This document shows, in pieces, positions 5,234 through 34,150 of a stretch of DNA of 37,244 bases. Every line of letters starts with the position of its first letter. Positions within the stretch are counted from its first letter, which is position 1. Source of the DNA: an uncultured Gammaproteobacteria bacterium. GTDB lineage: Bacteria; Pseudomonadota; Gammaproteobacteria; Pseudomonadales; Litorivicinaceae. A program made the position numbers and the translations under genes. The notes under the pieces are model-generated. The model had not been told where the DNA came from and made no database searches. It saw nothing but the letters and a program-made list of their open reading frames with translations. The DNA is taken from contig CAJWIY010000017.1 of the NCBI GenBank assembly GCA_913042205.1, positions 1 through 37,244 of the forward strand, in the 5' to 3' direction.

Positions 5234-6223
5234 TTAAATGATGACTTTTGTCGAGATACTTGAAGGGAAAATCTCTTCAGGTGTGAATTGTCTGTGGGAT
5301 ATGCCTTGCTGGTAAGAGTACAGAGCCATCTGCTCCCATGTTCTTCTGTTTTCCTCGACACCATAAGGGAACGGGTCACCATTCATGAAGTCCCGCATAT
5401 CTCTAGCATAGGTCGCAAGCCATGGCAGTGGGTACCGCGATATCGCCGGATCAAGTAGCCTTGAGATACTTTGGTCTTTCGACTCGAGGAACACATTGTA
5501 AAGGTTACGGGCGACCCAGGGATACTTGTCGTGTATGGATCTTTTCATCGCCAGGATATGCATGATTGGCCAGACACCGGTCTCTTTGAAGTACGCCTCT
5601 TCCATTTTGACGTAATCAGGGAACAATCGGATTATATCGGGATGGTTTTCGAGGAAGCATGTCGGGGGCCGGGCAATGATAGCGCAGTCAATCTCACCAC
5701 ACGCCAAAAGCTGGCTCAATGATTTATCTCTAATCCGTTCCAGGTTTATGCCCTCGGGTAGATTAAGTTCTACCTTCTCCTCACGTCCCGGGGCGTTTGC
5801 ACCAGCTTGGACCCAGTTGATATCGGTGAGCTCGATACCTTTATCATTCTGCATCCAACCCCTCATCCATACTGCCGCCGAGTGAGCCCATTCGGGCGAC
5901 CCTATACGTTTACCTTTTAGGTCCTCGACCGTTTTTATGTCGCTGTTTTTATTGATATAGAATGAACTGAATCGGAACAGTCTCGAGCAAACAATTGGTA
6001 ATCCGATGATGTCCGGTTTGTCGCGTGTGATCTGGGTGCTGAACTTGGCGAATGACAGCTCTGAAATATCGAACTCTCTATTAGCAGTAAACCTGGCAAA
6101 ACACTCGTGGTGGGTGAAAATAAACCAGTTAAGGTCAATCCCCTCAGGGTTTAACTTACGGATTCTGACGTCCCTGAAATGGTCATAGTCGTTGGTGGCG
6201 ATTGACAGATTAATTAGTGACAC
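5234..6223 (-). CDS. 4,5-dihydroxyphthalate decarboxylase-like protein (Pht5-like, SBP fold)
   Basis: First gene of the minus-strand operon, 329 aa, starting with GTG. It resembles the family annotated as 4,5-dihydroxyphthalate decarboxylase, which has a periplasmic-binding-protein-like fold. Recognisable pieces are FDISELSFAKF (about 50-60), IGLPIVCSRLFR (about 73-84), GKRIGSPEW, the CGEIDCAIIARPP segment and GVWPIMHI. There is no signal peptide, so it should be cytoplasmic rather than a transport receptor. A related but clearly different copy occurs at 16742-17710. The family name comes from one characterised phthalate enzyme. Most members are untested, so the substrate here is unknown; a carboxylated aromatic or similar acid is inferred. 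Confidence 0.75.
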   Translation of the reverse strand: MSLINLSIATNDYDHFRDVRIRKLNPEGIDLNWFIFTHHECFARFTANREFDISELSFAKFSTQITRDKPDIIGLPIVCSRLFRFSSFYINKNSDIKTVEDLKGKRIGSPEWAHSAAVWMRGWMQNDKGIELTDINWVQAGANAPGREEKVELNLPEGINLERIRDKSLSQLLACGEIDCAIIARPPTCFLENHPDIIRLFPDYVKMEEAYFKETGVWPIMHILAMKRSIHDKYPWVARNLYNVFLESKDQSISRLLDPAISRYPLPWLATYARDMRDFMNGDPFPYGVEENRRTWEQMALYSYQQGISHRQFTPEEIFPSSISTKVII

Positions 6224-15056: not shown

Positions 15057-15650
15057 TTGAAGAATCAGAATAAACAATCCCAATTACCAATACAGAGTAT
15101 ATGTTGGTTATTTTTTGTTTTGGGTTGTACCTGTTTCGGCGGAATGTGGGCCGCGATTGACCGGCTACAGCGAGAGCTGGTTGAGCGCAGAAAACTGTTA
15201 ACCACCGATGATCAAAAATCATTGATGCTAGCAGCCGCGATGATTCCGGCTCCCAAGTTTCTTGCGTTCGCGGTAATGGTTGGATATCGGGTTGGTGGGA
15301 TATGGGGAGCAGTTGGATCCTCGGTCGCCATCCTTTTACCCGGTACTTTGATCGTGATTGCCGCATGTGTGCTAACCATTACAGCATCTGAACACCCGGC
15401 ATTGGCTATTGTTCAACGGTACGTGGGTCTCGGCGTAATCGGGCTGCTTGCGGGTAACGCGGTCAGGATGTTCGTCGGCGAAGGGCTTGACCGAGATTCA
15501 ATTCTGTTCGGCTTGGTGATCTGTTTGGGAATTCCAGTCTACGTGATCCTACACGAAGGGTCGCTCATCATCGCAGCCTGCGCGAGCCTTGTGCTTGGTT
15601 CATTAACGATTCGGAGTGACACACGGCCTGGATCAGCCGATGTCGAATAA
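15057..15650 (+). CDS. chromate transporter, N-terminal-half subunit (ChrA family)
   Basis: Short-chain ChrA-family protein of 197 aa. It carries the family signature FGGMWAAIDRLQRELVERRKLL near residues 23-44 and the conserved AAAMIPAPKFLAFAVMVGYR segment, where the usual P-G-P is P-A-P. The start is TTG at 15057, with GAGTGAG upstream; no ATG fits the family N-terminus. It overlaps the second-half gene by 11 bases. The two probably form a heterodimer equivalent to one long ChrA. Long-chain ChrA proteins export chromate, while short pairs are often of unproven specificity. Confidence 0.85.
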   Translation: MKNQNKQSQLPIQSICWLFFVLGCTCFGGMWAAIDRLQRELVERRKLLTTDDQKSLMLAAAMIPAPKFLAFAVMVGYRVGGIWGAVGSSVAILLPGTLIVIAACVLTITASEHPALAIVQRYVGLGVIGLLAGNAVRMFVGEGLDRDSILFGLVICLGIPVYVILHEGSLIIAACASLVLGSLTIRSDTRPGSADVE

Positions 15651-16170
15651 CGCCTCTTTGCTAGTTGAGATCCTTGCCGTGATTGCCTTTAGTACCCTAT
15701 TTTCTTTGGGTGGCGGGAATGGACAGCTTGCGATCATCCAGGATTACTGGGTAGATCCGGGTATATTAAGTCCCGCCCTTTTCGCATGGGCCTACGCAAT
15801 CGGTAACCTTGTTCCGGGCCCAAAGTGTAGCTTCGTCGCTGGTATTGGTTACTTCTTGGCGGGATTCCCCGGTGCGTTGGTTTGCTTGGTGGGCATCTCC
15901 ATACCGACCGTCATCGGAGCGTCTCTGGCGGCGCATTGGCACGATCATCTTAAGCGGTATGTTGCACTGTTCATTCCTGCGTCTGGGTATGTGATCGCAG
16001 GGATGATGCTAACGGCGGGGACTGGTCTCGCGCTAAACATCACGATCGATCCGGTCGAGTATGTTTTTGTGGCGTTGATCGTTTTAGGGGTGTGGCTCAA
16101 GCGCTGGGATCCGGGGGTTGTGGTCCTATGTTCCGCGGGAATCGGAGTCCTTATTCATTTGTCTGGGTGA
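15640..16170 (+). CDS. chromate transporter, C-terminal-half subunit (ChrA family)
   Basis: Second ChrA-type half, 176 aa from the ATG at 15640. The family block FSLGGGNGQLAIIQDYWV and the NLVPGPKCSFVAGIGYFLAG segment (P-G-P motif) are clear, followed by several hydrophobic helices. The ATG lies inside the end of the preceding gene (11-base overlap), so translation is probably coupled. A longer in-frame start at 15616 exists but is less likely. No chrB-type regulator is adjacent. Confidence 0.87.
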   Translation: MSNNASLLVEILAVIAFSTLFSLGGGNGQLAIIQDYWVDPGILSPALFAWAYAIGNLVPGPKCSFVAGIGYFLAGFPGALVCLVGISIPTVIGASLAAHWHDHLKRYVALFIPASGYVIAGMMLTAGTGLALNITIDPVEYVFVALIVLGVWLKRWDPGVVVLCSAGIGVLIHLSG

Positions 16171-16714: not shown

Positions 16715-16741
16715 TCGGCGGGTTTGATCTGGAGGCAGTTC

Positions 16742-17710
16742 ATGGAGATCACGCTTGCTGTCGATCGATATGATCGACATTTTCCGTTTTTTGATGGCTC
16801 ATTATCTCATGACTTTGATTTGGATATTAAACCTTTTCAGGTCGGCCAAAGCGCCCATCTACAACATGGTACCGACAGGCACGAGTCTTTCCTAAGGGGA
16901 CAGTATGATGTCGCCGAATTTTCAATGTCGTCTTTTCTGGCGGCGAAAACCAGAGGTTATCCCATCGTGGGGATACCAGTTTTTCCAAGACGTTTATTCA
17001 GTACTAGTCAGATGTGGGTGAGTTTGGACTCACAGATGACTGAGCCCTCACATTTGATTGGACGGAGTGTCGCGCTTAGTGCATTCCAGACCACACTGTC
17101 GTTGCTCGCGAAGGGAGACCTCGAGTTTCATTACGAAGTGCCGTGGCGTTCGATTCATTGGAAGCTCACGACCAAGGAAAAAATACCACTAGAGCATGGT
17201 CCTGACGTTAGTGTTGAATTCATTGGCGAGCGTGACCGGTTGGGTGATCGGCTCCAGTCTGGCGAAATCGATGCGTTCTTCTTGCCCCACCCTCCAGCTA
17301 ACGTGATGAGTGGAGAGATTCCTGCAAGACGCCTGTTTCTAGACCCTGAATTGGAGGAGGAGCGTTACTTCGACGAAGTCGGCTCGTTTCCGATCATGCA
17401 CGTGATAGCCATTCAGGAATCATTGGCTAACAAAAGTCCCGGATTACCGTTGGAGCTAATGGAAATTTTTCATTCTGCGTTTGATATCGCTGAGGGTTAC
17501 TACGATGACCCTAACTGGTCTATGTTACCGGGCTGTAGGCATCAATTTGAGAGGGACCGGGAACGTTTCAAGCGCAAGGCATGGCTCCGTGGATTTGAGG
17601 CCAATCGGTCAAACGTCGATATGCTGATGCGGTACGCAGTCGACCAGGGAATTAGCGCAAAGTATATGCCGCCAGAGGCGCTATTCGCTGAGGTCACTTT
17701 GGAGACTTAG
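16742..17710 (+). CDS. 4,5-dihydroxyphthalate decarboxylase-like protein (second Pht5-like copy)
   Basis: Second Pht5-like protein, 322 aa from the ATG at 16742, which has GGAGG six bases upstream. It shares family blocks with the copy at 5234-6223: YDVAEFSMSSFLA, VGIPVFPRRLFS, SGEIDAFFLPHPP and GSFPIMHVIAI. It also carries a C-terminal VDQGISAKYMPPEALF block, equivalent to QQGISHRQFTPEEIF in the other copy. It has no signal peptide. Overall divergence is large, so the two probably act on different substrates. Neighbours are a cupin and an ornithine-cyclodeaminase-like protein. Confidence 0.75.
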   Translation: MEITLAVDRYDRHFPFFDGSLSHDFDLDIKPFQVGQSAHLQHGTDRHESFLRGQYDVAEFSMSSFLAAKTRGYPIVGIPVFPRRLFSTSQMWVSLDSQMTEPSHLIGRSVALSAFQTTLSLLAKGDLEFHYEVPWRSIHWKLTTKEKIPLEHGPDVSVEFIGERDRLGDRLQSGEIDAFFLPHPPANVMSGEIPARRLFLDPELEEERYFDEVGSFPIMHVIAIQESLANKSPGLPLELMEIFHSAFDIAEGYYDDPNWSMLPGCRHQFERDRERFKRKAWLRGFEANRSNVDMLMRYAVDQGISAKYMPPEALFAEVTLET

Positions 17711-22639: not shown

Positions 22640-23497
22640 CTAGGCAAACCTGAACAGTTCTGCGGGGTTATGGACCAGCAATCTCTTATGATGCTCAGTT
22701 GGTACCCAATCTAATGCCAGGTCTAATAGGTCCATATCATCTGGGTAATCTTCTTGTGATTTCGCACCGTTGTGGGGCCAGTTTGTTCCCCAAATTATGC
22801 GTTCGGGTGCGTAGTCAGCGATAAAACTAGCGATTTTGGCCACATCCGTGTAGTGAGGGGCACCGATTGCTGATGACTCATAGCATCCTGCGAATTTGTA
22901 CCAGCAATTGCCTCGATCAATCAGTTGTTTAAGACGATCAACTTCTATGGAGGTTATTTCTATAGGCTTAAAAAATTTGCCATGATGATCGATCACAAAA
23001 TTAGATTTTAGATTCACCAATGCTGAAAACTTCTCAGTAATAGTGTTCCCATCGAACTGCACCGCAATCATAAGTTCGTTGGCGGCAGTTTTCTGATCCA
23101 AACCCTTTATGTAAGAAAAATCGTACGCGCCACCGGGCAAATCCATTATCCGCGCTCCAACGATTCCGTGATCCATCAGGGTCGTTAATGATTTATCGTC
23201 AATATCTGGGGGGATTGCTGCGACGCCGTGTGCATCTGTTCCAAATCTCTCTAATACGTTAAGTAGACAATCATTATTCCTCTGGTAAGCATTGGCTACA
23301 GTAACGACCGTTTTCGAAATACCCAGCCAGCTACATACCCGTCGGTACTGCTTTTCGTCGGGCATACCGATAGGTAAGCCAGGCCCACCCGGCATTGCAG
23401 GGAAATCTGGAGCATAAATATGACTTTGTGTGTCGATAATTCCGTCGGGGAGGACGTGCCTAGATGCTCGTCCGGTAAGGGTACGTTCAATACTCAC
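22640..23497 (-). CDS. gli: D-galactarolactone isomerase (amidohydrolase superfamily)
   Basis: TIM-barrel amidohydrolase-superfamily protein, 285 aa. The N-terminal DTQSHIYAP (22-30), PAMPGGPGLP (34-43) and WLGISKTVVTVANAYQRNN (57-75) strongly resemble D-galactarolactone isomerase, which converts galactaro-1,5-lactone to the 1,4-lactone. The usual DxHxH metal motif is DTQSH, and the late Asp of the WGxDWP block is Asn239 (WGTNWPH). This suits an isomerase that, as I recall, does not need the metal centre of the hydrolases. The GTG start overlaps the gci stop by four bases. Its product is the substrate of the Gci enzyme encoded immediately upstream, which strengthens the call. Confidence 0.85.
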   Translation of the reverse strand: MSIERTLTGRASRHVLPDGIIDTQSHIYAPDFPAMPGGPGLPIGMPDEKQYRRVCSWLGISKTVVTVANAYQRNNDCLLNVLERFGTDAHGVAAIPPDIDDKSLTTLMDHGIVGARIMDLPGGAYDFSYIKGLDQKTAANELMIAVQFDGNTITEKFSALVNLKSNFVIDHHGKFFKPIEITSIEVDRLKQLIDRGNCWYKFAGCYESSAIGAPHYTDVAKIASFIADYAPERIIWGTNWPHNGAKSQEDYPDDMDLLDLALDWVPTEHHKRLLVHNPAELFRFA

Positions 23498-24630
23498 GGT
23501 CTGTATTTGAAGTGCTCGAGCGATTCGCGAGAGATCTCTATCCCTAGCCCTGGCGAATCAGGAATCTTCATAGTCCCTCGCTGATGCTCTAAAGGTTTTT
23601 TGAGAACTGCCTGTCTGAATGGGTTCTCGGTCCGATCGAATTCAAAAATTGGCTCCAACGGTTCTTTTCGGTATGGAGAGAACGGGATAGCAGCGATCGC
23701 TTGTAAGCTTGCAGCAATTTGGACACCGGTGCCCCAGACATGAGGGACCACCCTAACGCCATTCATCTGAGCGTGATCGACCACCCGTTTGAACTCAGAG
23801 AACCCGCCGACTCCGCAAACGTCTGGTTGAATAATATCGACAGCGCGAGCCTCAACGGCCGCTTTCATGGCCCAACGCGCGTGCCAAGTTTCACCACCGG
23901 CGACTGGTATTGGTTGCCTTGATCGTACATCGTGATAAGCGTCTAACAACTCCGGTAATACTGGTTCTTCAAACCAATCGATATCATAAGAACTCGCAGC
24001 GCGACCAACCGCTACCGCTTCCGTTGCGTCGTAGCCGTGGTTGGCGTCAATCATGACCCTCATGCCTGGACCGACAGCATCGCGGACCTGTCTGATTAAC
24101 TCCAAGTCCTCGTCCGCATTAAAACCGATTTTGAGTTTGATCGCGTGGAAGCCCTCATTTTTGTAGCTCAGAACCTCAGCGACGACGTCGGAGATACGAT
24201 CAACTCCCTCGCGCCGAAATGCACCTGTTGCGTACGCTTGGACTGATTCTCTGAACCGTCCTCCAAGAAGTATCGAGATCGGTTGACTGAGAAGTTTCCC
24301 TTTGATGTCCCAGAGCGCGACGTCGATGCCAGAAATGGCAGTAACTGTGACGCCCCGCTGTCCCTGGTCTCGGTATGTATGATAGAGGTCAAGCCAAACA
24401 ACCTCTATGTCTAGTGGATTCTTCCCGATGAGTCTGCCTCTCATTTGATCGATAATCGCAGCATTTATCAACGCTGGCCCCAAGCACTCTCCCCAACCAA
24501 CTGTTCCGCATTCGCACTCAATTTCGACGAGAAGATGTTGTCGGCTGTTGAAGCTCGTTGAGGCGCTCTCGAACGCTGTCTCGAGCTTGTGGTCTAAGAT
24601 GTGGGTTTGAACACTCGATATTAGAGTCAT
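23494..24630 (-). CDS. gci: D-galactarolactone cycloisomerase (enolase superfamily)
   Basis: Enolase-superfamily protein of 378 aa, the normal length. It opens galactaro-1,4-lactone to a 3-deoxy-2-keto-hexarate. The catalytic set is complete: Lys165 and Lys167 (KLKIGF), metal ligands Asp195 (MIDANHG), Glu221 (WFEEP) and Glu247 (GGETWH), and His297 (VPHVWGTG). The N-terminal ECECGTVGWGECLGPA segment and LEPIFEFDRTENPFRQA near the C-terminus match, from memory, the characterised Agrobacterium Gci very closely. It lies 13 bases after the ComA-like gene and is coupled to gli. The operon carries a LacI-type operator at its promoter. Confidence 0.92.
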   Translation of the reverse strand: MTLISSVQTHILDHKLETAFESASTSFNSRQHLLVEIECECGTVGWGECLGPALINAAIIDQMRGRLIGKNPLDIEVVWLDLYHTYRDQGQRGVTVTAISGIDVALWDIKGKLLSQPISILLGGRFRESVQAYATGAFRREGVDRISDVVAEVLSYKNEGFHAIKLKIGFNADEDLELIRQVRDAVGPGMRVMIDANHGYDATEAVAVGRAASSYDIDWFEEPVLPELLDAYHDVRSRQPIPVAGGETWHARWAMKAAVEARAVDIIQPDVCGVGGFSEFKRVVDHAQMNGVRVVPHVWGTGVQIAASLQAIAAIPFSPYRKEPLEPIFEFDRTENPFRQAVLKKPLEHQRGTMKIPDSPGLGIEISRESLEHFKYRP

Positions 24631-24643
24631 AAAAGCGTCAATC

Positions 24644-25462
24644 CTAAAATTGCCTGAGTAAGTTACTATCGCGGATCGGCTCGACTTGCAGGAGTTGGCT
24701 CGGCATGATGTTACAAGTATTACAATCGGGACCGAAAAGTTTGACGTACTCTGAGAGGTCTGCGAGCCATTGCTTGAGTCCTTCTCTTGGTGAGGTTACC
24801 TCAAAACAGACCCGCTCAAGACCCACATTTTTTATTATCTGATCGAAAACTACCTTCGCCTGATCTTGTTGAATCTCAAATTCCTCATGATCTAACACAA
24901 TGTATTCAGCTCCGTCTTCGAGAAACGGGGCTGCGGTGTTAAGAATGTCTTCTGCTGATGAGGCAAGATCTGGGCTTCCTTCTTTCCAGTTCCTGAGTGG
25001 ATGATGCTCGTACATAAATCGCATCGAGTTATCTATTGCGAAACGTCTCCACTGCATCCACTGTTTTTCGTTGACATCATTGCCTGTGTTCATGAACTCC
25101 ATCAGCGAAAATCCAAGGTTCCGCGCATGCCTGATCGCCTCTTCGACACAGTTTTTTTTATAAGCAAATTTAAAGTATGTGTGGTCCAAGTATGGTTCTA
25201 CGCCGAAGTCTCTATAAAGTTTTAGCTTCTTCGAAAGCCACTCCGGAGGAGAGTACAGAACCTGGGGAGTTGTGAGCTTTGCGTAATCGATTCTGTCAGC
25301 GGCTACTTGCAAGAAGTCATCCAGCTCTGGCAGTCCCATCCTCTCAAGATAGTGGGGTGCCTCGTGGTATCCAACATCTTTGATCCAGGTTTGTCGAAGC
25401 TTTCTCGGTTTATGTTTGAGCTGTACCTCAGGGAATCCTGATCCATGTTTTTTAACGTTCAT
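24644..25462 (-). CDS. ComA-family protein (phosphosulfolactate synthase-like), copy A
   Basis: TIM-barrel protein of 272 aa from the chosen ATG. It resembles the ComA/phosphosulfolactate synthase family in its KPRKLRQTWI opening, the pattern ADRIDYAKL, LKLYRDFGVEPYLDHTYFKFAY, and the GAEYIVLDHEEFE and ERVCFEVTSPREGLKQW segments. ComA joins sulfite to phosphoenolpyruvate, but bacterial members are mostly untested. The ATG at 25462 is preferred over one at 25522, because the operator palindrome (25484-25501) and the -10 element lie between the two. It is the first gene of the left arm of the LacI-controlled locus, ahead of gci and gli. Its step is unknown. It differs strongly from copy B (30072-30866). 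Confidence 0.72.
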   Translation of the reverse strand: MNVKKHGSGFPEVQLKHKPRKLRQTWIKDVGYHEAPHYLERMGLPELDDFLQVAADRIDYAKLTTPQVLYSPPEWLSKKLKLYRDFGVEPYLDHTYFKFAYKKNCVEEAIRHARNLGFSLMEFMNTGNDVNEKQWMQWRRFAIDNSMRFMYEHHPLRNWKEGSPDLASSAEDILNTAAPFLEDGAEYIVLDHEEFEIQQDQAKVVFDQIIKNVGLERVCFEVTSPREGLKQWLADLSEYVKLFGPDCNTCNIMPSQLLQVEPIRDSNLLRQF

Positions 25463-25483: not shown

Positions 25484-25501
25484 TTTGAGACCGGTCTCAA
25501 A
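25484..25501. promoter_or_regulatory. LacI-family operator, left operon
   Basis: Perfect 18-base palindrome TTTGAGACCGGTCTCAAA with a central CG, the usual form of LacI-family sites. It lies immediately downstream of the minus-strand -10 element and 22 bases upstream of the ComA-like ATG, where repressor binding would block initiation. Its 14-base core recurs at 26790-26803. It lies about 150 bases upstream of the LacI gene, so autoregulation is possible. Confidence 0.85.
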
Positions 25502-25530
25502 GTAGTAACACCCGTAAAACACTAAGTCAA
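25502..25530 (-). promoter_or_regulatory. sigma70-like promoter of left operon
   Basis: Read on the minus strand, TTGACT (25530-25525) and TACTAC (25507-25502) are separated by 17 bases. This places transcription initiation inside the adjacent operator palindrome. The -35 matches consensus well and the -10 is moderate. Confidence 0.55.
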
Positions 25531-25652: not shown

Positions 25653-26711
25653 ATGAGCCATCCAATGAAGAAATCCCCCACGCTTGTTGACGTTGCAAAA
25701 CTTGCGAATACGTCTAAGGCAACAGCCGCTCGTGTTTTTAGTCGAAGTAAATCAGCAAACGTTAGGCAAGAGACCAAGGCTAGGATACTTGAGGCAGCTG
25801 ATAAGTTGGGGTATTCGCCCAACCTGTCTGCGGCGAGTCTGCGATCGAAAAAAACATATTTAATAGCTTTGTGCATTCATGACATCACCAATCCGTCATC
25901 CCCGTCGTTAATTCGAGGAATACAAGATGAGCTTGCGCAACATGGATATGATCTCGTTGTTTTTAACAGTGATTGGGACCCTAATAAGGAAAAAAAGAAT
26001 TTGCGGGCGGTGGTTCGAAATCAGCTTGACGGTCTGATTTTGCAGGATCCATCCGACGAGCTTGATGTGTCAGAGCTCCCCGATCTTCCCTCAGTGATTC
26101 TGACCAGCAACGAAGTATTCTCAACAGTCCGGAACACGGTGAGTACTGACACAGTCGGGGGCGTGAGGAAGGCGCTAACCTACCTGCACTCGATGGGACA
26201 TGATCGAATCGGAATTTTACTGGGTGGCTCGGTTTCGCAAATTACTAATCGTAAGCGGGCTTACTTGGATTTTTATAAAAGCGCCGGTTTGAAAGTTGAG
26301 GACAGATTGATTGTTGACGTGCCGTTTAAGACGCGGGCAAGTGACACTTTTGTTATGGCGAAGGAACTCATCGTTGATCTTATGCGCTCGCCTCAACGTC
26401 CTTCAGCGATTTTTGCATCAAACGACATGCTTGGTTTGGCGGCATTGCAAATGGCGCAGATTGAAGGCCTCCAAGTTCCGCGAGATCTGTCGGTTGTTGG
26501 GATGGATGATTTATTCTCGGCTGAGAGTGCGTCTCCGGCACTAACTTCTGTTTCAAAACATCGTTTCCAGGTAGGCGCGCAAGCCGCTAGAAACCTTTTA
26601 AACCAGATTAATAGCGAGCACTCAATGGAAAAGGGGCCTATCAATGAGCTCGTTGAATGCACCTTGGTGGTCCGAGATTCTAGCGGCCCGATAGCGGAAG
26701 TTGATGTTTGA
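25653..26711 (+). CDS. LacI-family transcriptional regulator of the hexuronate locus
   Basis: LacI/GalR-type repressor, 352 aa. The N-terminal helix-turn-helix is TLVDVAKLANTSKATAARVF (about 9-28), followed by the hinge segment LGYSPNLSAASLRSKKT and a periplasmic-binding-like effector domain (CIHDITNPSSPSLIRGIQDEL; later FASNDMLGLAALQ and VVGMDDLF). It sits between two divergent operons, each preceded by a GAGACCGGTCTC palindrome, which are the obvious target sites. The effector is probably a sugar acid or lactone of the pathway. No good ribosome-binding site precedes the ATG at 25653; the ATG at 25665 is an alternative. Confidence 0.93.
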   Translation: MSHPMKKSPTLVDVAKLANTSKATAARVFSRSKSANVRQETKARILEAADKLGYSPNLSAASLRSKKTYLIALCIHDITNPSSPSLIRGIQDELAQHGYDLVVFNSDWDPNKEKKNLRAVVRNQLDGLILQDPSDELDVSELPDLPSVILTSNEVFSTVRNTVSTDTVGGVRKALTYLHSMGHDRIGILLGGSVSQITNRKRAYLDFYKSAGLKVEDRLIVDVPFKTRASDTFVMAKELIVDLMRSPQRPSAIFASNDMLGLAALQMAQIEGLQVPRDLSVVGMDDLFSAESASPALTSVSKHRFQVGAQAARNLLNQINSEHSMEKGPINELVECTLVVRDSSGPIAEVDV

Positions 26712-26787: not shown

Positions 26788-26805
26788 AATGAGACCGGTC
26801 TCAAA
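26788..26805. promoter_or_regulatory. LacI-family operator, right operon
   Basis: AATGAGACCGGTCTCAAA contains a perfect 14-base palindrome (26790-26803), identical in its core to the left operator and matching it at 16 of 18 positions. It lies about 135 bases upstream of the TTT receptor gene. It defines the second arm of the same regulon. Confidence 0.85.
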
Positions 26806-26938: not shown

Positions 26939-28015
26939 ATGCGTAATCTCGTACTAGGCCTATTGATTTCATGCTTCGCATGGTCGCCTACAGTGTCCGC
27001 AAACCTTGATCTTTCAGGGAAGACAGTCACATGGGTAGTTCCATTCAAGGAGGGCGGCGGTACAAGCCGATTTGCCCGGTTCCTGCAGCCATATCTCACA
27101 AAATACTTGCCAGGTAACCCAACGATCCAGATTCAGCATATACCAGGCGGTGGCGCCATTAAGGGCTCTAATTATTTCCAAAAGAATGCGAAACCTGATG
27201 GTACTTATCTTTTTGGTTGTTCGACCTCGGTCATCGTCAATGTAGCCACGGGGAACCCGCTGGTGGAATACAATCTAGGTGCTTACAAGCCGGTACTTCT
27301 GCTTCCCCAAAATACCCATTGGTTCACACGGACTGATCTAGCGAGTGGCACCAGTGATATCTCGAAGTTAAAAGAGCGGGATCTGGTTTTATATGCATTG
27401 AAGACCCCTGCTTCGGCTGATCTTTTTCATATTTGGGTTTATGACAAGTTGGGTATAAAAAAGGCGCGGCCTATCCCGGGGCTCTCCTCGAGCGCGGGTT
27501 ACCAAGCATTTCTGCGCGGTGAAATCCATCTGAGCTCCCACGGGGCAGCGAATTATGTCAAAAAGGTTAAGCCCGAGATTGAGAGTGGGAAGGTTGTCGA
27601 CATCATGACGCTTGGGATTGTGGGTGCAGACGGGAGCATATCTAGAAATCCACTCGCACCTGATGTACTCACGTTCCCCGAGATGTATGAGAAGGTGAAC
27701 GGAAAGAAACTGGATGGTGCAGATCTTGAGGCCTTCTATTCCATAGCCGCCGCGTGGGCCCAGGCGTCTAAGTCCATGTTACTGCCCGAGGGAACGCCTG
27801 ACGCGATTGTCGAGGCGTATCGTAAAGCCGTCACGGAGATGGTGAACGATCCGGAGTTCAAAGAGAAAGCGACAAAGGCGCTGGGGCCTTATCCACTTAT
27901 AATTGGCGAAGAAGCAGGCCCGATTCTCAAGAAGGCTGCGATCTTTTCAGACAGTACCAAGAAGCAATTGAATGCGGTACTAAAAAAGAATCGCTTCGTC
28001 TACAGGGTTCAATAA
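26939..28015 (+). CDS. tctC: TTT transporter periplasmic receptor of the hexuronate regulon
   Basis: TctC/Bug-type substrate-binding protein, 358 aa, with a signal peptide of about 21 residues (cleavage expected after VSA). The mature protein opens with the VTWVVPFKEGGGTSRFAR pattern, then IQIQHIPGGGAIKGSNYF and KPDGTYLFGC, all standard for this family. It is a little longer than usual. GGAG precedes the ATG at 26939. It is the first gene of the right arm, followed by a hairpin and the fused permease. The expected ligand is a uronic acid or a sulfated uronate, inferred from the catabolic genes downstream. Confidence 0.9.
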   Translation: MRNLVLGLLISCFAWSPTVSANLDLSGKTVTWVVPFKEGGGTSRFARFLQPYLTKYLPGNPTIQIQHIPGGGAIKGSNYFQKNAKPDGTYLFGCSTSVIVNVATGNPLVEYNLGAYKPVLLLPQNTHWFTRTDLASGTSDISKLKERDLVLYALKTPASADLFHIWVYDKLGIKKARPIPGLSSSAGYQAFLRGEIHLSSHGAANYVKKVKPEIESGKVVDIMTLGIVGADGSISRNPLAPDVLTFPEMYEKVNGKKLDGADLEAFYSIAAAWAQASKSMLLPEGTPDAIVEAYRKAVTEMVNDPEFKEKATKALGPYPLIIGEEAGPILKKAAIFSDSTKKQLNAVLKKNRFVYRVQ

Positions 28016-28060: not shown

Positions 28061-30049
28061 ATGGATCAGTTTCTTCTAGCTTTGGGTCAGCTGTTCGGGC
28101 TTACCCATCTTTTGTTTTTGTTTGGAGGAACACTCCTCGGATTGACAGTGGGAATCTTACCAGGGTTGGGTGGGACATCCGGCTTGGCCCTTGTACTTCC
28201 CTTCGTGTTTGGTCTAGAGCCCTCACACGCCTTAGCTATGATGATCGGTGTTCTCGCACCAACTACTACATCTGATACCTTTCCAGCCGTTCTTATGGGT
28301 GTTCCCGGTACATCGGGTTCGCAAGCCACGGTCATGGATGGGTTTCCCTTGTCTAAACAAGGAATGGCTGCACGGGCCCTAAGTGCAGCATTCTTATCAT
28401 CACTACTGGGCGGTGTGTTTGGCGCAGTTATTCTGTCGGCGTCTATTTATTACGCGATTCCCATCATTATGACCTTTGGATTCGGGGAACAGTTTCTACT
28501 GATTGTTTTGGCCCTTTTGATGGTCGGAGCATTGACCGGTGACAACTTTGTAAAAGGTATAACCGCTTGTTTCTTGGGTTTGATAATCGGTTCAGTAGGT
28601 TCTGCGCCGATTACTGGCGATCCTCGATTCACTTTCGATACCCTTTATCTTATTGAAGGTATTCCTCTTGTAATCGTCGGCTTGGGTTTATTCGCGATCC
28701 CAGAAATAGTCGGTCTTTTGGACAACAAGGGTGCGATCGCAAAATCACTCCGAATCGAGCGGGGTTGGCTTACAGGAATAGCCGATGTCTTTAAGAACTG
28801 GTGGCTGGTTCTCCGGTGCTCGACGCTTGGCTGTTTGGTGGGCGCATTACCCGGCTTAGGGGGGACGGTAGTTGACTGGATCGCCTACAGTCATCTGAGA
28901 CAAACCAGCAAAGATACGTCTCGATTGGGAAAAGGGGATATCCGAGGCGTGATCGCCCCAGAGTCTGCAAATAATGCGAAAGAAGGAGGGGCTCTGATAC
29001 CAACCCTGCTTTTTGGTATCCCAGGATCTGGGAATAAGGTGCTGCTCCTGGGTGGGTTTATTCTTGTCGGGATCGAGCCCGGATTGGATATGGTAACCAC
29101 ACACCTTGACCTGACATATCTGATGATTTGGTCGTTAGCCGTAGCCAATATACTAGGCGCCGGGTTGTGTATCGGCTTTGCGCCGCATATTTCAAAACTC
29201 ACCCTGGTCCGATATTACATCCTAGCTCCCGTCATGATCACGTTAATATTTTTTGCAACCTATAACGTGAACCGTGACTGGTACGACTTCGTAGGACTTC
29301 TAGGTTTTGGTTTGGTAGGGATCACCTTCAAGCATTATGGGTGGTCCCGACCCGCGCTTTTGATTGGCTTTTTCCTTTCATCGAAAGTTGAGTTATTGAG
29401 CTATCAAACGCAGGCCGTTTACGGATTATCTTTTCTCTATCGACCAGTCGCCATAATTCTCATAGTAATGTGCCTCGCCACGATCATTTTATTATTAAGG
29501 CAACGATTCGATACTGGTTACGACTCGCAGTTGATCAAAAATAAGTCCAAACAAATGTATCTATCCCTTCTCTTGATGTGCCTGCCATTAGCTGTGATGT
29601 GGGATGTATCAGGTATACCGGATTTCAGAGCGACACTTTTTCCGATAGGTGTATGCTTGATATCGATCTCTCTCCTGATTTTGATATTCGCCGTCCAATT
29701 AGCCGACCTGAGAAAGCCAGCATTCGCTGGCGGCGGCTTCCTCCGCTTCGTGAACACGAACATCTATGAAAACGTAGCGGGCTTCAATAATCAGTTATAT
29801 TACTATTTAAGTATATTGGGCTATCTGGCGATGAATTTTATCTTTGGTTTCCCGATAGCATCGGTACTCTTTATTAACCTGTTTATTTTGTTTCATGATA
29901 AGCGGGACCTAAAAATCTCGTTTTCTATCTCGCTCTCGCTCCTCTTGATTTTATGGACCCTGTCGTCTTTGCTCACGCTCCAGTTTCCCAATGGTTTGCT
30001 TGGGACATTTGTCGATATGCCGTGGTGGTTGGGTGGAGAACTCAACTAG
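28061..30049 (+). CDS. TTT permease, TctA-TctB fusion
   Basis: Membrane protein of 662 aa, against about 500 for a normal TctA. Residues 1-490 are TctA, with GILPGLGGTSGLALVLPF near the start, the MGVPGTSGSQATVMDGFPLSKQG block, ALPGLGGTV, and APESANNAKEGGALIPTLLFGIPGS. After a charged linker (about 485-505) come roughly 150 residues with four hydrophobic segments beginning MYLSLLLMCLPLAVMW and DFRATLFPIGVC, which fit a TctB small subunit. No separate tctB gene is present, supporting a natural fusion. A frameshift artefact is excluded because the frame is continuous. It imports the regulon substrate. Confidence 0.88.
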   Translation: MDQFLLALGQLFGLTHLLFLFGGTLLGLTVGILPGLGGTSGLALVLPFVFGLEPSHALAMMIGVLAPTTTSDTFPAVLMGVPGTSGSQATVMDGFPLSKQGMAARALSAAFLSSLLGGVFGAVILSASIYYAIPIIMTFGFGEQFLLIVLALLMVGALTGDNFVKGITACFLGLIIGSVGSAPITGDPRFTFDTLYLIEGIPLVIVGLGLFAIPEIVGLLDNKGAIAKSLRIERGWLTGIADVFKNWWLVLRCSTLGCLVGALPGLGGTVVDWIAYSHLRQTSKDTSRLGKGDIRGVIAPESANNAKEGGALIPTLLFGIPGSGNKVLLLGGFILVGIEPGLDMVTTHLDLTYLMIWSLAVANILGAGLCIGFAPHISKLTLVRYYILAPVMITLIFFATYNVNRDWYDFVGLLGFGLVGITFKHYGWSRPALLIGFFLSSKVELLSYQTQAVYGLSFLYRPVAIILIVMCLATIILLLRQRFDTGYDSQLIKNKSKQMYLSLLLMCLPLAVMWDVSGIPDFRATLFPIGVCLISISLLILIFAVQLADLRKPAFAGGGFLRFVNTNIYENVAGFNNQLYYYLSILGYLAMNFIFGFPIASVLFINLFILFHDKRDLKISFSISLSLLLILWTLSSLLTLQFPNGLLGTFVDMPWWLGGELN

Positions 30050-30071: not shown

Positions 30072-30866
30072 ATGACTGAATCATCTTTCCCTAATCTTCC
30101 GTTTCTCGGACGCGAAAAGAAACCAAGAGAAACGGGCATCAACTACGTGAGAGCCCCGGTCTTGGTAGGACAATGTATTGATGATTACCTGCAGGCCTAC
30201 AGCGACATCGTTGATATTTTCAAACTTTCTGGGAAGCAGGCAGGTCAGATGTCTCGGAGCTCGTTATTGCGGTTCCTAGAAACATGCAAGTCCAACGATG
30301 TAATGATTTCAATCGGCAACCCGTTGATGGATATGGCGCTAAATGGTGGCCGTAAGATAGTCGATGACTATCTCGATAGGGTTGTCGACTATGGGGTAGA
30401 CATTATTGAAATTTCAAGTATCGCTAGGTCGGCGGATGATGACGATATATGCCGTTTAATCGATGTAGCTTCCAAGAGAGGTTTGAAGGTGATCAACGAA
30501 GTAGGGATCGCCTTCGCTCATTCAGAAGTGCAGGACAATATGATATTTAGTGAGAGATTGGGTCGACAGATACAAAGATTTCTAGACGCAGGTTCTTGGA
30601 AAATTTTGTTGGAATCTGAGGGTATTACGGAGAACCTGGAGAGAGACAAATTTAGGTGGCAGTTAATCGATCGGCTTCTCAGCCCATTAGCATTATCACA
30701 ATTTATGGTTGAGGCTGACGATCAAGATGTTTTGAGCAAATATATCGAAATATATGGTCCAAATATAAATATGATGGTTGATTACTCGAGGGTGCTCAAA
30801 ATGGAGGATGCTCGGACCGGCCACGGTCCAAGTCAGTCGCTTTGGGGGAAAGTTGTAAAGTATTAG
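30072..30866 (+). CDS. ComA-family protein (phosphosulfolactate synthase-like), copy B
   Basis: ComA-family TIM-barrel protein, 264 aa. It has the GREKKPRETGINYV opening (13-26), SDIVDIFKLSGKQA, VVDYGVDIIEISS, GLKVINEVG, the GSWKILLESEGITEN segment and the C-terminal SLWGKVVKY. It looks closer to bacterial and plant ComA homologues than copy A. Canonical ComA makes 2-phospho-3-sulfolactate from sulfite and phosphoenolpyruvate. No comB, comC or sulfolactate genes are present, so that role is not supported here. AAAGGA precedes the ATG. It lies between the permease and the sulfatase in the right arm, and its reaction in a uronate/sulfatase setting is unknown. Confidence 0.78.
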   Translation: MTESSFPNLPFLGREKKPRETGINYVRAPVLVGQCIDDYLQAYSDIVDIFKLSGKQAGQMSRSSLLRFLETCKSNDVMISIGNPLMDMALNGGRKIVDDYLDRVVDYGVDIIEISSIARSADDDDICRLIDVASKRGLKVINEVGIAFAHSEVQDNMIFSERLGRQIQRFLDAGSWKILLESEGITENLERDKFRWQLIDRLLSPLALSQFMVEADDQDVLSKYIEIYGPNINMMVDYSRVLKMEDARTGHGPSQSLWGKVVKY

Positions 30867-31013
30867 ACGGTAAATGGACCAATGTTTCATGTTCAGTGGT
30901 AGGAAAGGGTATCGATTTCAATTTCTCAGCGGTCCAGCGTATTGGGTGACGAGCATTAGTTGTCCGGTCGAAAATATGAAGAGCTTATCGTTTCGTGGGG
31001 GAATGGCACCGCA

Positions 31014-32519
31014 GTGAAGTCTCCGAACTTTGTTTTCATCATGGCAGATGACCACGCCGTTAACGCAATAAGCGCTTATGGTTCAACCCTCATTAACACG
31101 AAACACATCGATCGATTGGCATCCGACGGGATGTGCTTTACACATTGCTATACGACGAATTCGCTCTGCGCACCCTCACGGGCGGCTATCCTAACCGGGA
31201 CCTACAACCATGTTAACGGGGTTTACACCCTGACAACGAAGCTCAGTTCAATGTTCCCAAATTTTGTGAAGCACCTGCAACGGGCAGGATACTCGACAGG
31301 GATAATTGGTAAGTGGCATCTTGGGGATGACAAGTCGTCAGAACCCTCGGGGTTCGATCACTTTGATGTTCTGCTGGGGCAGGGCGACTATTACGATTCA
31401 GTGTTTAATCTAAACGGTAAACTTACCAACAGCACCGGCTATGTCACCGATGTCATCACATCTAAATCAGTCCGGTGGTTAGAGACCAGAGATGTCTCGA
31501 AACCATTTTTCTTAATGGTCAACCATAAAGCCCCGCACAGGGAATGGGAAAACCACCCGAAATATGATGACGAGTTTCAAGACAATATTCGGCTGCCAGA
31601 CACCTTCAATGATAACTATGACAATAGGGCCAAGGCCGCTGGTGCAGCCAAAATAAGAATCCGTGAGGATCTAAAGTACGATGACCTGGGTCTCGTTCAA
31701 CCTGTGGGTGGAGCCGAGGTCGGTCAGCCAATTAAGCCGGGGAGCAAAGAACGAAAAATCCCAGACCTGAAAGATTCGAACGTTATTACTTTGATTGATA
31801 AGAAAACGGGTGAAAAATTTGAGTTTTCTGATCCCGAGTATTTGGCAGAATTTAAATATCAGAGATACATCAAGCGATACCTCCGAACCGTTCTTTCACT
31901 CGACGAAAGCGTTGGTAATATTCTAGATTGTCTCGATAAGATGGGGCTCGCCCGCGACACGGTGGTGGTTTATACGTCCGATCAAGGCTTTTTCCTCGGT
32001 GAGCATGGTTGGTTTGACAAACGTTTCATCTACGAAGAATCGTTTCAAATGCCGCTCTTGATCAGATACCCCGGGATGACCAGTGGTGGTGTCTGCCCAG
32101 ATATCGTCTCTAATGTCGATTTCGCACCCACGTTGCTAGATATCGCTGGTCTACCTTCGCCAAGCTACATGCAAGGCCGTAGTTTTTTAAAACTACTGAT
32201 GGGTAAAACGCCACCAAACTGGGAACAGATCGCGTATCACAGATACTGGATGCACAAGGATCTTCAGCACAACGTCTACGCCCATTACGGCGTACGAGAT
32301 CAGAGATACAAACTGATTTATTGGTACAACGAAGGGCTCGGCGTTCCCGGTGCAACCGACGGCGCAGAGCCTCCTGAATGGGAATTTTTCGATTGCGTTG
32401 AAGATCCCCTGGAATTAATTAATTGTTATGGGGATAGCCGCTATTCAGACGAAGTCAGCCGTATGCGGGCCCTGCTTGACGCGAAGATGAGCGAGATTGG
32501 CGATGTTCCTAGACACTAA
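31014..32519 (+). CDS. formylglycine-type (S1) sulfatase, no signal peptide
   Basis: Type I sulfatase of about 501 aa. The opening PNFVFIMADDHA supplies the metal-binding Asp pair (12-13). The maturation motif is Cys52-Ala-Pro-Ser-Arg56 followed by AAILTG, so Cys52 should become formylglycine. IGKWHLG (Lys100, His102), NHKAPH and SDQGFFLGEHGWFDK complete the active site. I chose GTG 31014, because sulfatases normally begin at this motif and GGGGA lies upstream. TTG at 30960 would add 18 residues. Neither start gives a signal peptide, so it is cytoplasmic, unlike most polysaccharide sulfatases. Context suggests it removes sulfate from an imported sugar acid. The activating enzyme is not in the window. 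Confidence 0.88.
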   Translation: MKSPNFVFIMADDHAVNAISAYGSTLINTKHIDRLASDGMCFTHCYTTNSLCAPSRAAILTGTYNHVNGVYTLTTKLSSMFPNFVKHLQRAGYSTGIIGKWHLGDDKSSEPSGFDHFDVLLGQGDYYDSVFNLNGKLTNSTGYVTDVITSKSVRWLETRDVSKPFFLMVNHKAPHREWENHPKYDDEFQDNIRLPDTFNDNYDNRAKAAGAAKIRIREDLKYDDLGLVQPVGGAEVGQPIKPGSKERKIPDLKDSNVITLIDKKTGEKFEFSDPEYLAEFKYQRYIKRYLRTVLSLDESVGNILDCLDKMGLARDTVVVYTSDQGFFLGEHGWFDKRFIYEESFQMPLLIRYPGMTSGGVCPDIVSNVDFAPTLLDIAGLPSPSYMQGRSFLKLLMGKTPPNWEQIAYHRYWMHKDLQHNVYAHYGVRDQRYKLIYWYNEGLGVPGATDGAEPPEWEFFDCVEDPLELINCYGDSRYSDEVSRMRALLDAKMSEIGDVPRH

Positions 32520-32569: not shown

Positions 32570-33370
32570 ATGCTTGAAAGATTACTAGTGACAGGTGCCG
32601 CGGGCGGGGTTGCCAATCTCCTCAGGCCACGACTTATTGGTGTTTCTAAAAAGTTCCGTCTAACCGACATTCAGCACTTCGCTTCAGCCTCGGACTTGGA
32701 TGAGACAATGATCGGAGATTTGGCAGATTCCGCTTTTGTTGATCAACTCGTTCAAGGCTGTGATGGCATCCTTCATCTCGGCGGAGTGTCGACCGAGCAA
32801 CCATTTGACGAGATCCTGCCGGCGAACATCGTGGGCGTCTCCAATATATACAGGGCCGCGGCAAAGTACGGCCGACCAAGAGTCATTTTTGCGAGCTCGA
32901 ATCACGTAACGGGCGCCTACCGTACACAAGAAACAATAACGCCAAATGAGCCATTTCTACCTGATAGTTTTTATGGGGCATCGAAGGTTTTTGGTGAGGC
33001 CGTCGCGAAGTTGTTCTTTGTTAAGGCAGGGATCGAGTCCGCGATCGTAAGAATAGGATCGTGTTTCGAACAGCCTTCGGATCTTCGAATGATGTCTACT
33101 TGGTTTAGCCCAGACGACTTTGCAGCGTTAATAAAGAGTTGTTTTGAGGTAGAGACCTTAGACTGCCCGACCATTTTTGGAGTTTCAAACAATGCTGGTT
33201 CGTTTTGGAGAAATACTGAGATTGGCCATCTGGACTGGCACAGTGAAGCGCGAGCAGAGGACCTTCTTGAGTCGATGAATCAACCAAATGTCTCCCCAGA
33301 GGAATTAGCGGCGGGTCTTATGGACTATCATGGTGGGACTTGGGTCAAGAGGCCCCTCGATACTGAGTGA
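32570..33370 (+). CDS. udh: uronate dehydrogenase
   Basis: Short NAD-dependent epimerase/dehydratase-type protein, 266 aa. The cofactor loop TGAAGGVA lies at residues 8-15, Asp33 ends the second strand (NAD preference), then HLGGVSTEQPF, FASSNHVTGAY with Ser110, and Tyr135/Lys139 (YGASK). These blocks and the RIGSC, MMSTWFSPDDF and GGTWV segments match characterised uronate dehydrogenases, which oxidise D-galacturonate or D-glucuronate to the aldaro-1,5-lactone. That lactone is exactly the substrate of Gli, encoded in the divergent arm. GGGG precedes the ATG at 32570. The aldolase gene follows after 9 bases. Confidence 0.9.
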   Translation: MLERLLVTGAAGGVANLLRPRLIGVSKKFRLTDIQHFASASDLDETMIGDLADSAFVDQLVQGCDGILHLGGVSTEQPFDEILPANIVGVSNIYRAAAKYGRPRVIFASSNHVTGAYRTQETITPNEPFLPDSFYGASKVFGEAVAKLFFVKAGIESAIVRIGSCFEQPSDLRMMSTWFSPDDFAALIKSCFEVETLDCPTIFGVSNNAGSFWRNTEIGHLDWHSEARAEDLLESMNQPNVSPEELAAGLMDYHGGTWVKRPLDTE

Positions 33371-33379
33371 GATTAGTCT

Positions 33380-34150
33380 ATGAGAACAAATAAAATTCGA
33401 GAGAAATGGGACGCCGATGAACCAGTATTAAATGGCTGGCTAACAATTTCTAATGGCTTTTCAGCTGAGGTAATGGCGCATCAGGGTTACGACACGTTAA
33501 CGGTTGATCTTCAGCATGGTGTCAATGACGAGATGAATCTCATCGCTATGCTGCAGGCAATCAGCACCACTGAGACTGTCCCAATTATTCGGGTCCCGTG
33601 GCTGGAGCCAGGGATCATTATGAAGGCCCTTGATATGGGCGCGTATGGTGTGATTTGCCCGATGATAAACACGGCAGAAGATGCCAAAAAATTTGTCGAA
33701 TACACGAGTTATGCGCCAATGGGGCGGAGAAGCTTCGGTCCTGTTAGGGCATCAATCTACGGTGGTAATGATTATCCAGACCATGCAAACGATATGATCG
33801 TTCGGTTCGCGATGATCGAAACAGCGGAGGCTCTTGATAATCTGGACGCAATTTTGGGAGTTGAAGGTTTGGATGCTATTTACATCGGACCGTCGGATCT
33901 CTCCTTGTCACTGGGGTGTAAGCCAACCTTTGATGAAGTCGATCCGCCTGCGGCCGAGGCAATCGACCACATTTTAGAGCGTGCCACCGCGCATGGATTG
34001 AAGGCGGGTATTCACAACGGAACAACTGCGTCTGCAAGAGCACGAATCGGAAAAGGATTTCGATTTGTCACAGTATCCTCCGATGCGCGAATCATGGCCG
34101 ATGGATCACAGGCAATTATCGCTGAGATGAAAGATCCGTTTAAGTCATGA
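33380..34150 (+). CDS. HpcH/HpaI-family class II aldolase
   Basis: Pyruvate-class aldolase of 256 aa. The HpaI-type residues are all present: His46 (VDLQH), Arg71 (IRVPW), metal ligands Glu147 (MIETAEA) and Asp173 (GPSDLS). Members cleave 2-keto-3-deoxy or 5-keto-4-deoxy sugar acids to pyruvate plus an aldehyde. After Udh, Gli and Gci the likely substrate is the 3-deoxy-2-keto-hexarate, giving pyruvate and tartronate semialdehyde. The exact specificity is inferred. The locus has no KdgD-type dehydratase, so this aldolase may replace that route. It is the last clear gene of the right operon. Confidence 0.9.
   Translation: MRTNKIREKWDADEPVLNGWLTISNGFSAEVMAHQGYDTLTVDLQHGVNDEMNLIAMLQAISTTETVPIIRVPWLEPGIIMKALDMGAYGVICPMINTAEDAKKFVEYTSYAPMGRRSFGPVRASIYGGNDYPDHANDMIVRFAMIETAEALDNLDAILGVEGLDAIYIGPSDLSLSLGCKPTFDEVDPPAAEAIDHILERATAHGLKAGIHNGTTASARARIGKGFRFVTVSSDARIMADGSQAIIAEMKDPFKS

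Follow-up and report, generated by a model that had tools for sequence, protein, structure and literature searches.

Canonical ComA uses sulfite, which it adds to phosphoenolpyruvate (PEP). A gene of the same family, placed directly ahead of genes for hexuronate catabolism in an uncultured gammaproteobacterium, raises the question of which reaction its product could catalyze in such a setting. We refer to the whole stretch of DNA analysed here (37,244 nucleotides) as the window, and to the protein in question as A. A preliminary description had placed A first in an operon with two galactarolactone enzymes and assigned it no step. The window also encodes a second member of the family, B, and the following features bear on the question.

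22640-23497, minus strand: amidohydrolase resembling galactarolactone isomerase (Gli; PDB 4mup, which we take to be Gli, E = 3.2e-83)
23494-24630, minus strand: galactarolactone cycloisomerase (Gci), enolase superfamily (PDB 4ggb/4hpn, presumably Gci of A. tumefaciens, E = 2.1e-158)
24644-25462, minus strand: protein A, divergent ComA-family (PF02679) TIM-barrel enzyme, 272 aa from the ATG at 25462
25485-25500, no strand: putative operator copy 1, the perfect palindrome TTGAGACCGGTCTCAA, before A
25653-26711, plus strand: LacI-family regulator (Pfam), between the two operator copies
26789-26804, no strand: putative operator copy 2, one mismatch to copy 1, before TctC
26939-28015, plus strand: TctC-like solute-binding protein, divergent, with a weak PDB match to TctC/Bug proteins
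28061-30049, plus strand: TctA permease of a tripartite tricarboxylate transporter (TTT), 662 aa (PF01970, E = 1.6e-118)
30072-30866, plus strand: protein B, second divergent ComA-family protein (PF02679, 151 bits)
30960-32519, plus strand: sulfatase with CAPSR motif, an optional member, with no obvious signal peptide by eye
32570-33370, plus strand: uronate dehydrogenase (Udh; best PDB match 3rft, E = 7.7e-73)
33380-34150, plus strand: HpcH/HpaI-type aldolase resembling 2-keto-3-deoxy-hexarate aldolase (Pfam/NCBIfam and PDB searches)

Family-model scans (Pfam/NCBIfam) took in 10 window proteins, and the window ORF lists were read by eye. Judged by eye, two adjoining half-length proteins at 15057-16170 resemble a split chromate-transporter-type pair, and two distantly related proteins (5234-6223 and 16724-17710), each beside other catabolic genes, are possibly of the 4,5-dihydroxyphthalate decarboxylase kind. 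The copy of the 16724-17710 protein in a related locus, L005, is 27% identical to the 5234-6223 protein.

Family, predicted fold and active site of protein A

The ATG at 25462 is preceded by a GGAAA a few bases upstream; a longer reading frame from a GTG at 25522 would swallow operator copy 1 and place it inside the gene. A matches the Pfam ComA family (PF02679) with 142.6 bits, against a cut-off of 25.2 (E = 1.9e-41), and a PDB sequence search (E up to 1) returned three matches, all of them ComA (best E = 1.1e-12). Identity to ComA of M. jannaschii is 24%, and the score against the NCBI phosphosulfolactate synthase equivalog, TIGR03849, is 60.8 bits, well short of the cut-off of 280; B scores 62 bits against the same model and cut-off. 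These values uphold the preliminary description where it called A very divergent.

An AlphaFold2 model of A, computed from an eight-row alignment (four A-type and four B-type sequences), is an eight-strand barrel (pLDDT 73.7, pTM 0.72) in which residues 1-41 and 254-272 are poorly predicted. With this model as query, Foldseek ranks the solved ComA structure 1qwg first (E = 1.3e-13), and VIA-align superposes the two at Z = 23.2 (rmsd 3.0 over 224 residues); the best unrelated chain reaches Z = 13.8. Structure prediction, which might have returned some other fold, thus places A closest to solved ComA and agrees with the Pfam match and with the fold proposed for it earlier.

Active-site positions were compared across 58 chosen rows (10 canonical, 15 A, 13 B, 8 PrpD-linked and 12 other), a table that left out the long-branch rows L016, L017, L027, L029, L066 and L069 and several others, near-duplicates among them. 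All 58 rows retain D40, K43, E103 and E133 (M. jannaschii numbering), and 56 rows each have E205, N224 and an acid at position 168. The loop R170-E171-S172-G173, which may serve in ligand binding in the canonical enzymes, aligns across the 10 canonical rows; the remaining 48 rows, including 15/15 of the A clade, are gapped there. The A clade also carries Asp-His at Gly74-Gly75 and Met at Ser105 (15/15 rows), and has the motifs LDH, EFMNT, DHEExExQ and NxMxSQ. Its invariant residues, among them K62, D93, H94, E122, N125, E152, H154, D191, H192, E193, E221 and N248, map in or just behind the predicted strands of the model. Active sites of TIM barrels lie in or just behind the strands, and these residues may bind metal and substrate. 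Lysine 137 of M. jannaschii ComA is presumably catalytic; the aligner opened a 4-residue insertion in A after E152, and the position of K137 is not safely mappable. On the alignment, A keeps the Lys/acid core of the family and does without the Arg-Glu-Ser-Gly loop of canonical ComA.

A and B are the only ComA-family members found in the 2.02-Mb assembly that contains the window, and a further genomic copy was rejected on this result. A single-sequence search with A across 398 genomes of the phylum matched its own genome alone, and the nearest outside relative found is encoded on a plasmid of Allorhizobium ampelinum (50% identity). A viral or phage link was rejected: A had no match in phages and none that was confirmed in viral contigs.

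Phylogeny, proposed earlier as a check on A, places it outside the canonical ComA clade in a firm five-row clade of its own (100/100); its deep position is unsure because of the long branches L017, L066, L029, L065, L069, L027 and L016. A and B are 19% identical and fall in different clades. The model of B (pLDDT 73.9) has 1qwg as its best structural match (E = 2.7e-14), and B groups as sister to a clade linked to MmgE/PrpD genes (fork 100/99), with which it has in common the motifs ES-EG(I/L)TEN and VDxS. Members of this sister clade, hosted by haloarchaea, Salinibacter and methanotrophs, are annotated 'phosphosulfolactate synthase', a public annotation that, at the locus studied here, would wrongly imply sulfonate or coenzyme M synthesis. 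The tree omits L054, which falls where L039 does, the fragments from G027 (L018, L020-L022) and the sub-cut-off matches L019, L040 and L041. An A/B alignment that included L004 was set aside on account of undetermined residues, as was A3, which started one codon late.

Beyond the window, a ComA-family gene near an MmgE/PrpD gene is a recurrent pair in archaea and bacteria (L028, L030-L035, L037, L083, L088, L191). In each of the alphaproteobacterial loci L086 and L087, a ComA-family gene and TctA cluster with four MmgE/PrpD-like matches. At L076 (G1137), TctC and then TctA (50% identical to its window counterpart) come after a ComA-family gene, and the opposite strand beyond TctA carries a sulfatase-like and then an aconitase-family gene. 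Among open-licence full texts we found no paper joining 'phosphosulfolactate synthase' with 'PrpD', or 'phosphosulfolactate' with either 'SAR116' or 'tricarboxylate transporter'.

A recurrent cassette of a transporter and two ComA-family proteins

The constant partners of A are TctC, TctA and B, and the cassette of these four genes is the recurrent unit. All four are present in 12/12 A-type loci that are uncut by a contig end: four gammaproteobacterial loci (the window, L003, L004 and L005) and eight from the order of the SAR116 genome G765 (L089, L119-L125). Four further cases in the SAR116 order are cut by contig ends (L105, L126, L127, L128). ComA matches occur in 18 of the 136 genomes of this order, and A- or B-type genes in 12 of the 136 (8 whole cassettes, 4 contig-cut). 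In the window's own genus, 3 of 13 genomes have A and B; the other 10, some of them incomplete, have no ComA match. A cassette of one transporter plus two enzymes thus recurs in marine bacteria. The window TctC has no Pfam match at E = 0.001 and a weak PDB match to TctC/Bug proteins (E = 8.6e-5), and its PDB matches indicate no ligand.

The trees of A and of B conflict. Between L119/L120 and L121-L123, B is 92-95% identical, TctC 92-95% and TctA 91-96%, but A only 45-47%, and on these identities the A slot is swapped between two A subtypes. Since the two A subtypes share one transporter and one B, A may carry out the step that is more specific to the substrate, or the two subtypes may be doing the same job. 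The loci with swapped A also carry LacI. In L120 (5583-8009), TctA is an 808-aa frame whose match to the window TctA falls into two segments separated by roughly 400 bases, reflecting either an insertion or an irregular assembly.

The preliminary description reasoned that A, being first behind the repressor site, is probably needed early in the pathway. An early step is plausible, because A stays with the importer; it does not follow from the first operon position.

Operators and hexuronate genes

In the window, A is the first gene behind the palindrome, Gci follows 13 nt downstream, and Gci and Gli overlap by 4 nt. The LacI-family protein may bind both operator copies. The 2.02-Mb assembly holds two TTGAGACCGGTCTCAA sites with up to one mismatch and one more at two mismatches, where the first 600 bases of the locus resemble ATP synthase genes by eye; for the pair of sites in the window, a shuffle control allowing up to three mismatches gave a mean of 0.13 matches, and 2 were reached in 1 of 100 shuffles. 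The 12-bp core of TTGAGACCGGTCTCAA is present in two copies each in L003, L004 and L005. Joined by the two operator copies, A-Gci-Gli and TctC-TctA-B-sulfatase-Udh-HpcH would form one putative LacI regulon, and the earlier proposal that A is co-regulated with Gci and Gli gains support in this lineage from there being two such sites, at up to one mismatch, in the assembly.

Another putative operator palindrome, TGATAACGTTATCA or its 12-bp core, occurs among the LacI loci of the SAR116 order. Sites of this type precede both genes in three of the four uncut LacI loci (L119, L120, L125) and A in the contig-cut L128; L124 has no perfect palindrome of the TGATAACGTTATCA type. Operator-like palindromes precede A as well as TctC in each of the two lineages, and joint regulation of A with the importer is probable in both. 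The view of A as leader of the gci-gli operon is more restricted: operator and gene order support it in this lineage, but no Gci or Gli follows A in any of the six uncut SAR116-order loci whose sequence extends more than 1 kb beyond it (the L089 and L124 stretches end 96 and 662 bases behind A). A as the intrinsic head of a gci-gli operon was therefore rejected.

The link between cassette and hexuronate genes was assessed in the same two lineages. Gci, Gli and Udh are present in all four gammaproteobacterial loci, with L005 cut by the contig end inside Udh, and HpcH in three of the four, L005 running off its contig. No Gci, Gli or Udh was found in the eight uncut SAR116-order stretches, of which L089 and L124 end close behind A. 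In one SAR116 genome, G765, UxaC lies 10 nt behind B. Across the order, UxaC is present in 2 of 12 cassette genomes and in 9 of 136 genomes overall. Udh-like proteins (E < 1e-30) were found in 4/12 cassette genomes versus 12/19 controls, and Gci-like proteins (E < 1e-80) in 9/12 versus 11/19, the controls being 19 of the 118 ComA-less SAR116-order genomes in list order. G1264 was searched and belongs to neither group. The counts leave out two incomplete matches, a partial Udh at the end of a G1160 contig (E = 2.5e-10) and a truncated Gci in G1170 (E = 2.4e-70). Two cassette genomes, G1223 and G1221, which may be incomplete, have none of UxaC, Udh-like or Gci-like proteins at those levels. UxaC, Udh and Gci were accordingly rejected as obligatory partners of the cassette; there is no association in the SAR116 order, so a uronate reading is not confirmed by co-occurrence. 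Udh and UxaC both start from free hexuronate, and A and B would for this reason act upstream of them.

Candidate substrates and reactions

To the following reading, taken as a whole and including the departure of this ComA-fold enzyme from phosphosulfolactate synthesis, we give a probability of about 0.4. A and B would be enolate-type lyases, hydratases or epimerases whose product in the window's lineage is a hexuronate. The enolate of a carboxylate would be stabilised by Lys and several Glu/Asp residues at the C-terminal ends of the barrel strands, probably together with a divalent metal, during loss or addition of a group at the beta carbon or proton transfer at the alpha carbon. The substrate of A and its distant paralogue B would be an unphosphorylated, sugar-like carboxylate brought in by TctC-TctA. 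The product here, free hexuronate or a close relative, would then run through Udh, Gli, Gci and the HpcH aldolase. For the reaction we offer, as a weak suggestion, either beta-elimination at C4-C5 or addition of water there, on a uronate that is 4-O-substituted or 4,5-unsaturated, given that C4=C5(OR)-COO- is a structural analogue of PEP.

Several observations count against the hexuronate reading. In the SAR116 order the cassette shows no link to uronate genes. The pairing of A with B is broken twice: the A. ampelinum relative of A is the last gene after a sugar-type ABC transporter, on a plasmid in which a search found no second ComA and hence no B, and L129 (G1264) has TctC and TctA, together with a B-like protein at 41-46% and a sulfatase at 61% identity, and no A. 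A further one is that the sister clade of B and several divergent ComA proteins lie near MmgE/PrpD, PrpF, TcuA or TTT genes, which points to polycarboxylates rather than uronates. MmgE/PrpD is present in 11 of the 14 fetched loci of the sister clade, and TTT, PrpD, PrpF or TcuA genes in 8/21 other divergent loci versus 0/10 canonical loci, counts that come from loci of unequal length, some of them contig-cut and three canonical ones shorter than 5 kb, with PrpD queries taken from five of the counted loci. From these counts, divergent ComA proteins tend to adjoin carboxylate transport and enzyme genes, a neighbourhood that fits enolate chemistry on unphosphorylated acids and keeps a polycarboxylate alive as the substrate.

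On the polycarboxylate alternative, which we consider somewhat unlikely, A and B would be a hydratase, lyase or isomerase pair for a small aconitate-, tricarballylate- or malate-like acid imported by TctCA, and the gammaproteobacterial hexuronate genes would have joined later for a second substrate of the same transporter. Besides the neighbour counts, it draws on a TctA relative (51.5% over 74% of the query) beside tcuA and tcuB, and on the eight uncut SAR116-order stretches, in which no Gci, Gli or Udh was found and a single UxaC was. It sits poorly with the hexuronate genes behind the same two operator copies in the window, with UxaC following B in one SAR116 genome, and with the 12 uncut A/B loci, in which no PrpD, PrpF or TcuA was found (E = 1e-8).

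The two different enzymes beside the cassette that consume free hexuronate, Udh and UxaC, would also suit a hexuronate epimerase or isomerase, acting for example at C5, by which A (or B) turns a rarer uronate into glucuronate or galacturonate, and abstraction of an alpha proton would fit the retained Lys/Glu core. One enzyme would be enough for such a step, yet A and B occur together in 12/12 uncut loci, and the cassette has no association with uronate genes in SAR116; we regard this as improbable. About equally improbable is a narrower form of the hexuronate reading, in which two copies of the ComA fold have become a two-step etherase/rehydration pair. One enzyme would beta-eliminate the 4-O-substituent from an imported uronate, or take a 4,5-unsaturated uronate, and the other would hydrate C4=C5 to give a saturated hexuronate without the usual KduI/DEH route. 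If true, a family known for adding sulfite to PEP would have a branch that is active on carbohydrates.

The suggestion in the preliminary description that A takes part in sulfite or sulfate chemistry finds little support. In the window, L005 and L129, B is immediately followed by a sulfatase (the nearest PDB entry to the window protein is the N-acetylglucosamine-6-sulfatase 5g2v), and L125 has a sulfatase-modifying-factor gene (PF03781) in the vicinity of A. Together with the use of sulfite by canonical ComA, these genes would agree with a retro-Michael reaction that frees sulfite from a sulfo-sugar acid, or with a sulfated uronate losing sulfate by elimination. Such a role is very unlikely given that no sulfatase homologue was found in L003 and L004 (two of the four gammaproteobacterial loci) or in any of the eight uncut SAR116-order stretches, that the canonical R-E-S-G loop is missing, and that the window ORF lists, read by eye with 10 of their proteins model-scanned, showed no gene recognisable as sulfite-handling. 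The sulfatase being optional, a sulfated uronate is weakened as an obligatory substrate; in some lineages the substrate range may have been extended to sulfated compounds.

That A is an ordinary phosphosulfolactate synthase for coenzyme M or sulfolactate synthesis has in its favour the Pfam match and the ComA fold and is nonetheless most unlikely, since it scores far under the equivalog cut-off, lacks the canonical loop and falls outside the canonical clade, and since none of the bacterial coenzyme M genes given in the part of PMC11507031 considered here (argininosuccinate/adenylosuccinate lyase-like, cysteine desulfhydrase-like and sulfoacetaldehyde dehydrogenase) was recognised by eye beside A. 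The window ORF lists, read by eye with 10 proteins model-scanned, showed no recognisable ComB or other coenzyme M gene.

Because A, B and TctC are small single proteins, the substrate of this divergent branch of a classic fold could be found. Compared with known systems, A is like ComA (PF02679, TIGR03849; PDB 1qwg, 1u83) in its TIM-barrel fold and in the common pattern of D40, K43, E103, E133, E205 and N224. It is unlike ComA in its 24% identity and sub-equivalog score, in the absence of the GRESG loop, in its Asp-His and Met replacements, and in adjoining a TTT-type importer. The MmgE/PrpD-linked proteins belong to the same family and also lack the loop; they are sister to B, whereas A falls in another clade with its own motifs, and no PrpD was found at the A/B loci. 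In the oxidative hexuronate pathway, the part of PMC6353982 considered here gives the order Udh, Gli, Gci, leading to 3-deoxy-2-keto-hexarate, and names no ComA-like step; the uronate importer named in the corresponding part of PMC5812351 is of the TRAP type, not TTT, a further point against the hexuronate reading. The window has Udh, Gli and Gci of this Agrobacterium-type pathway, all behind its two operator copies, and differs from it in having an HpcH/HpaI aldolase in place of KdgD, import apparently of the TTT type and two added ComA-like proteins.
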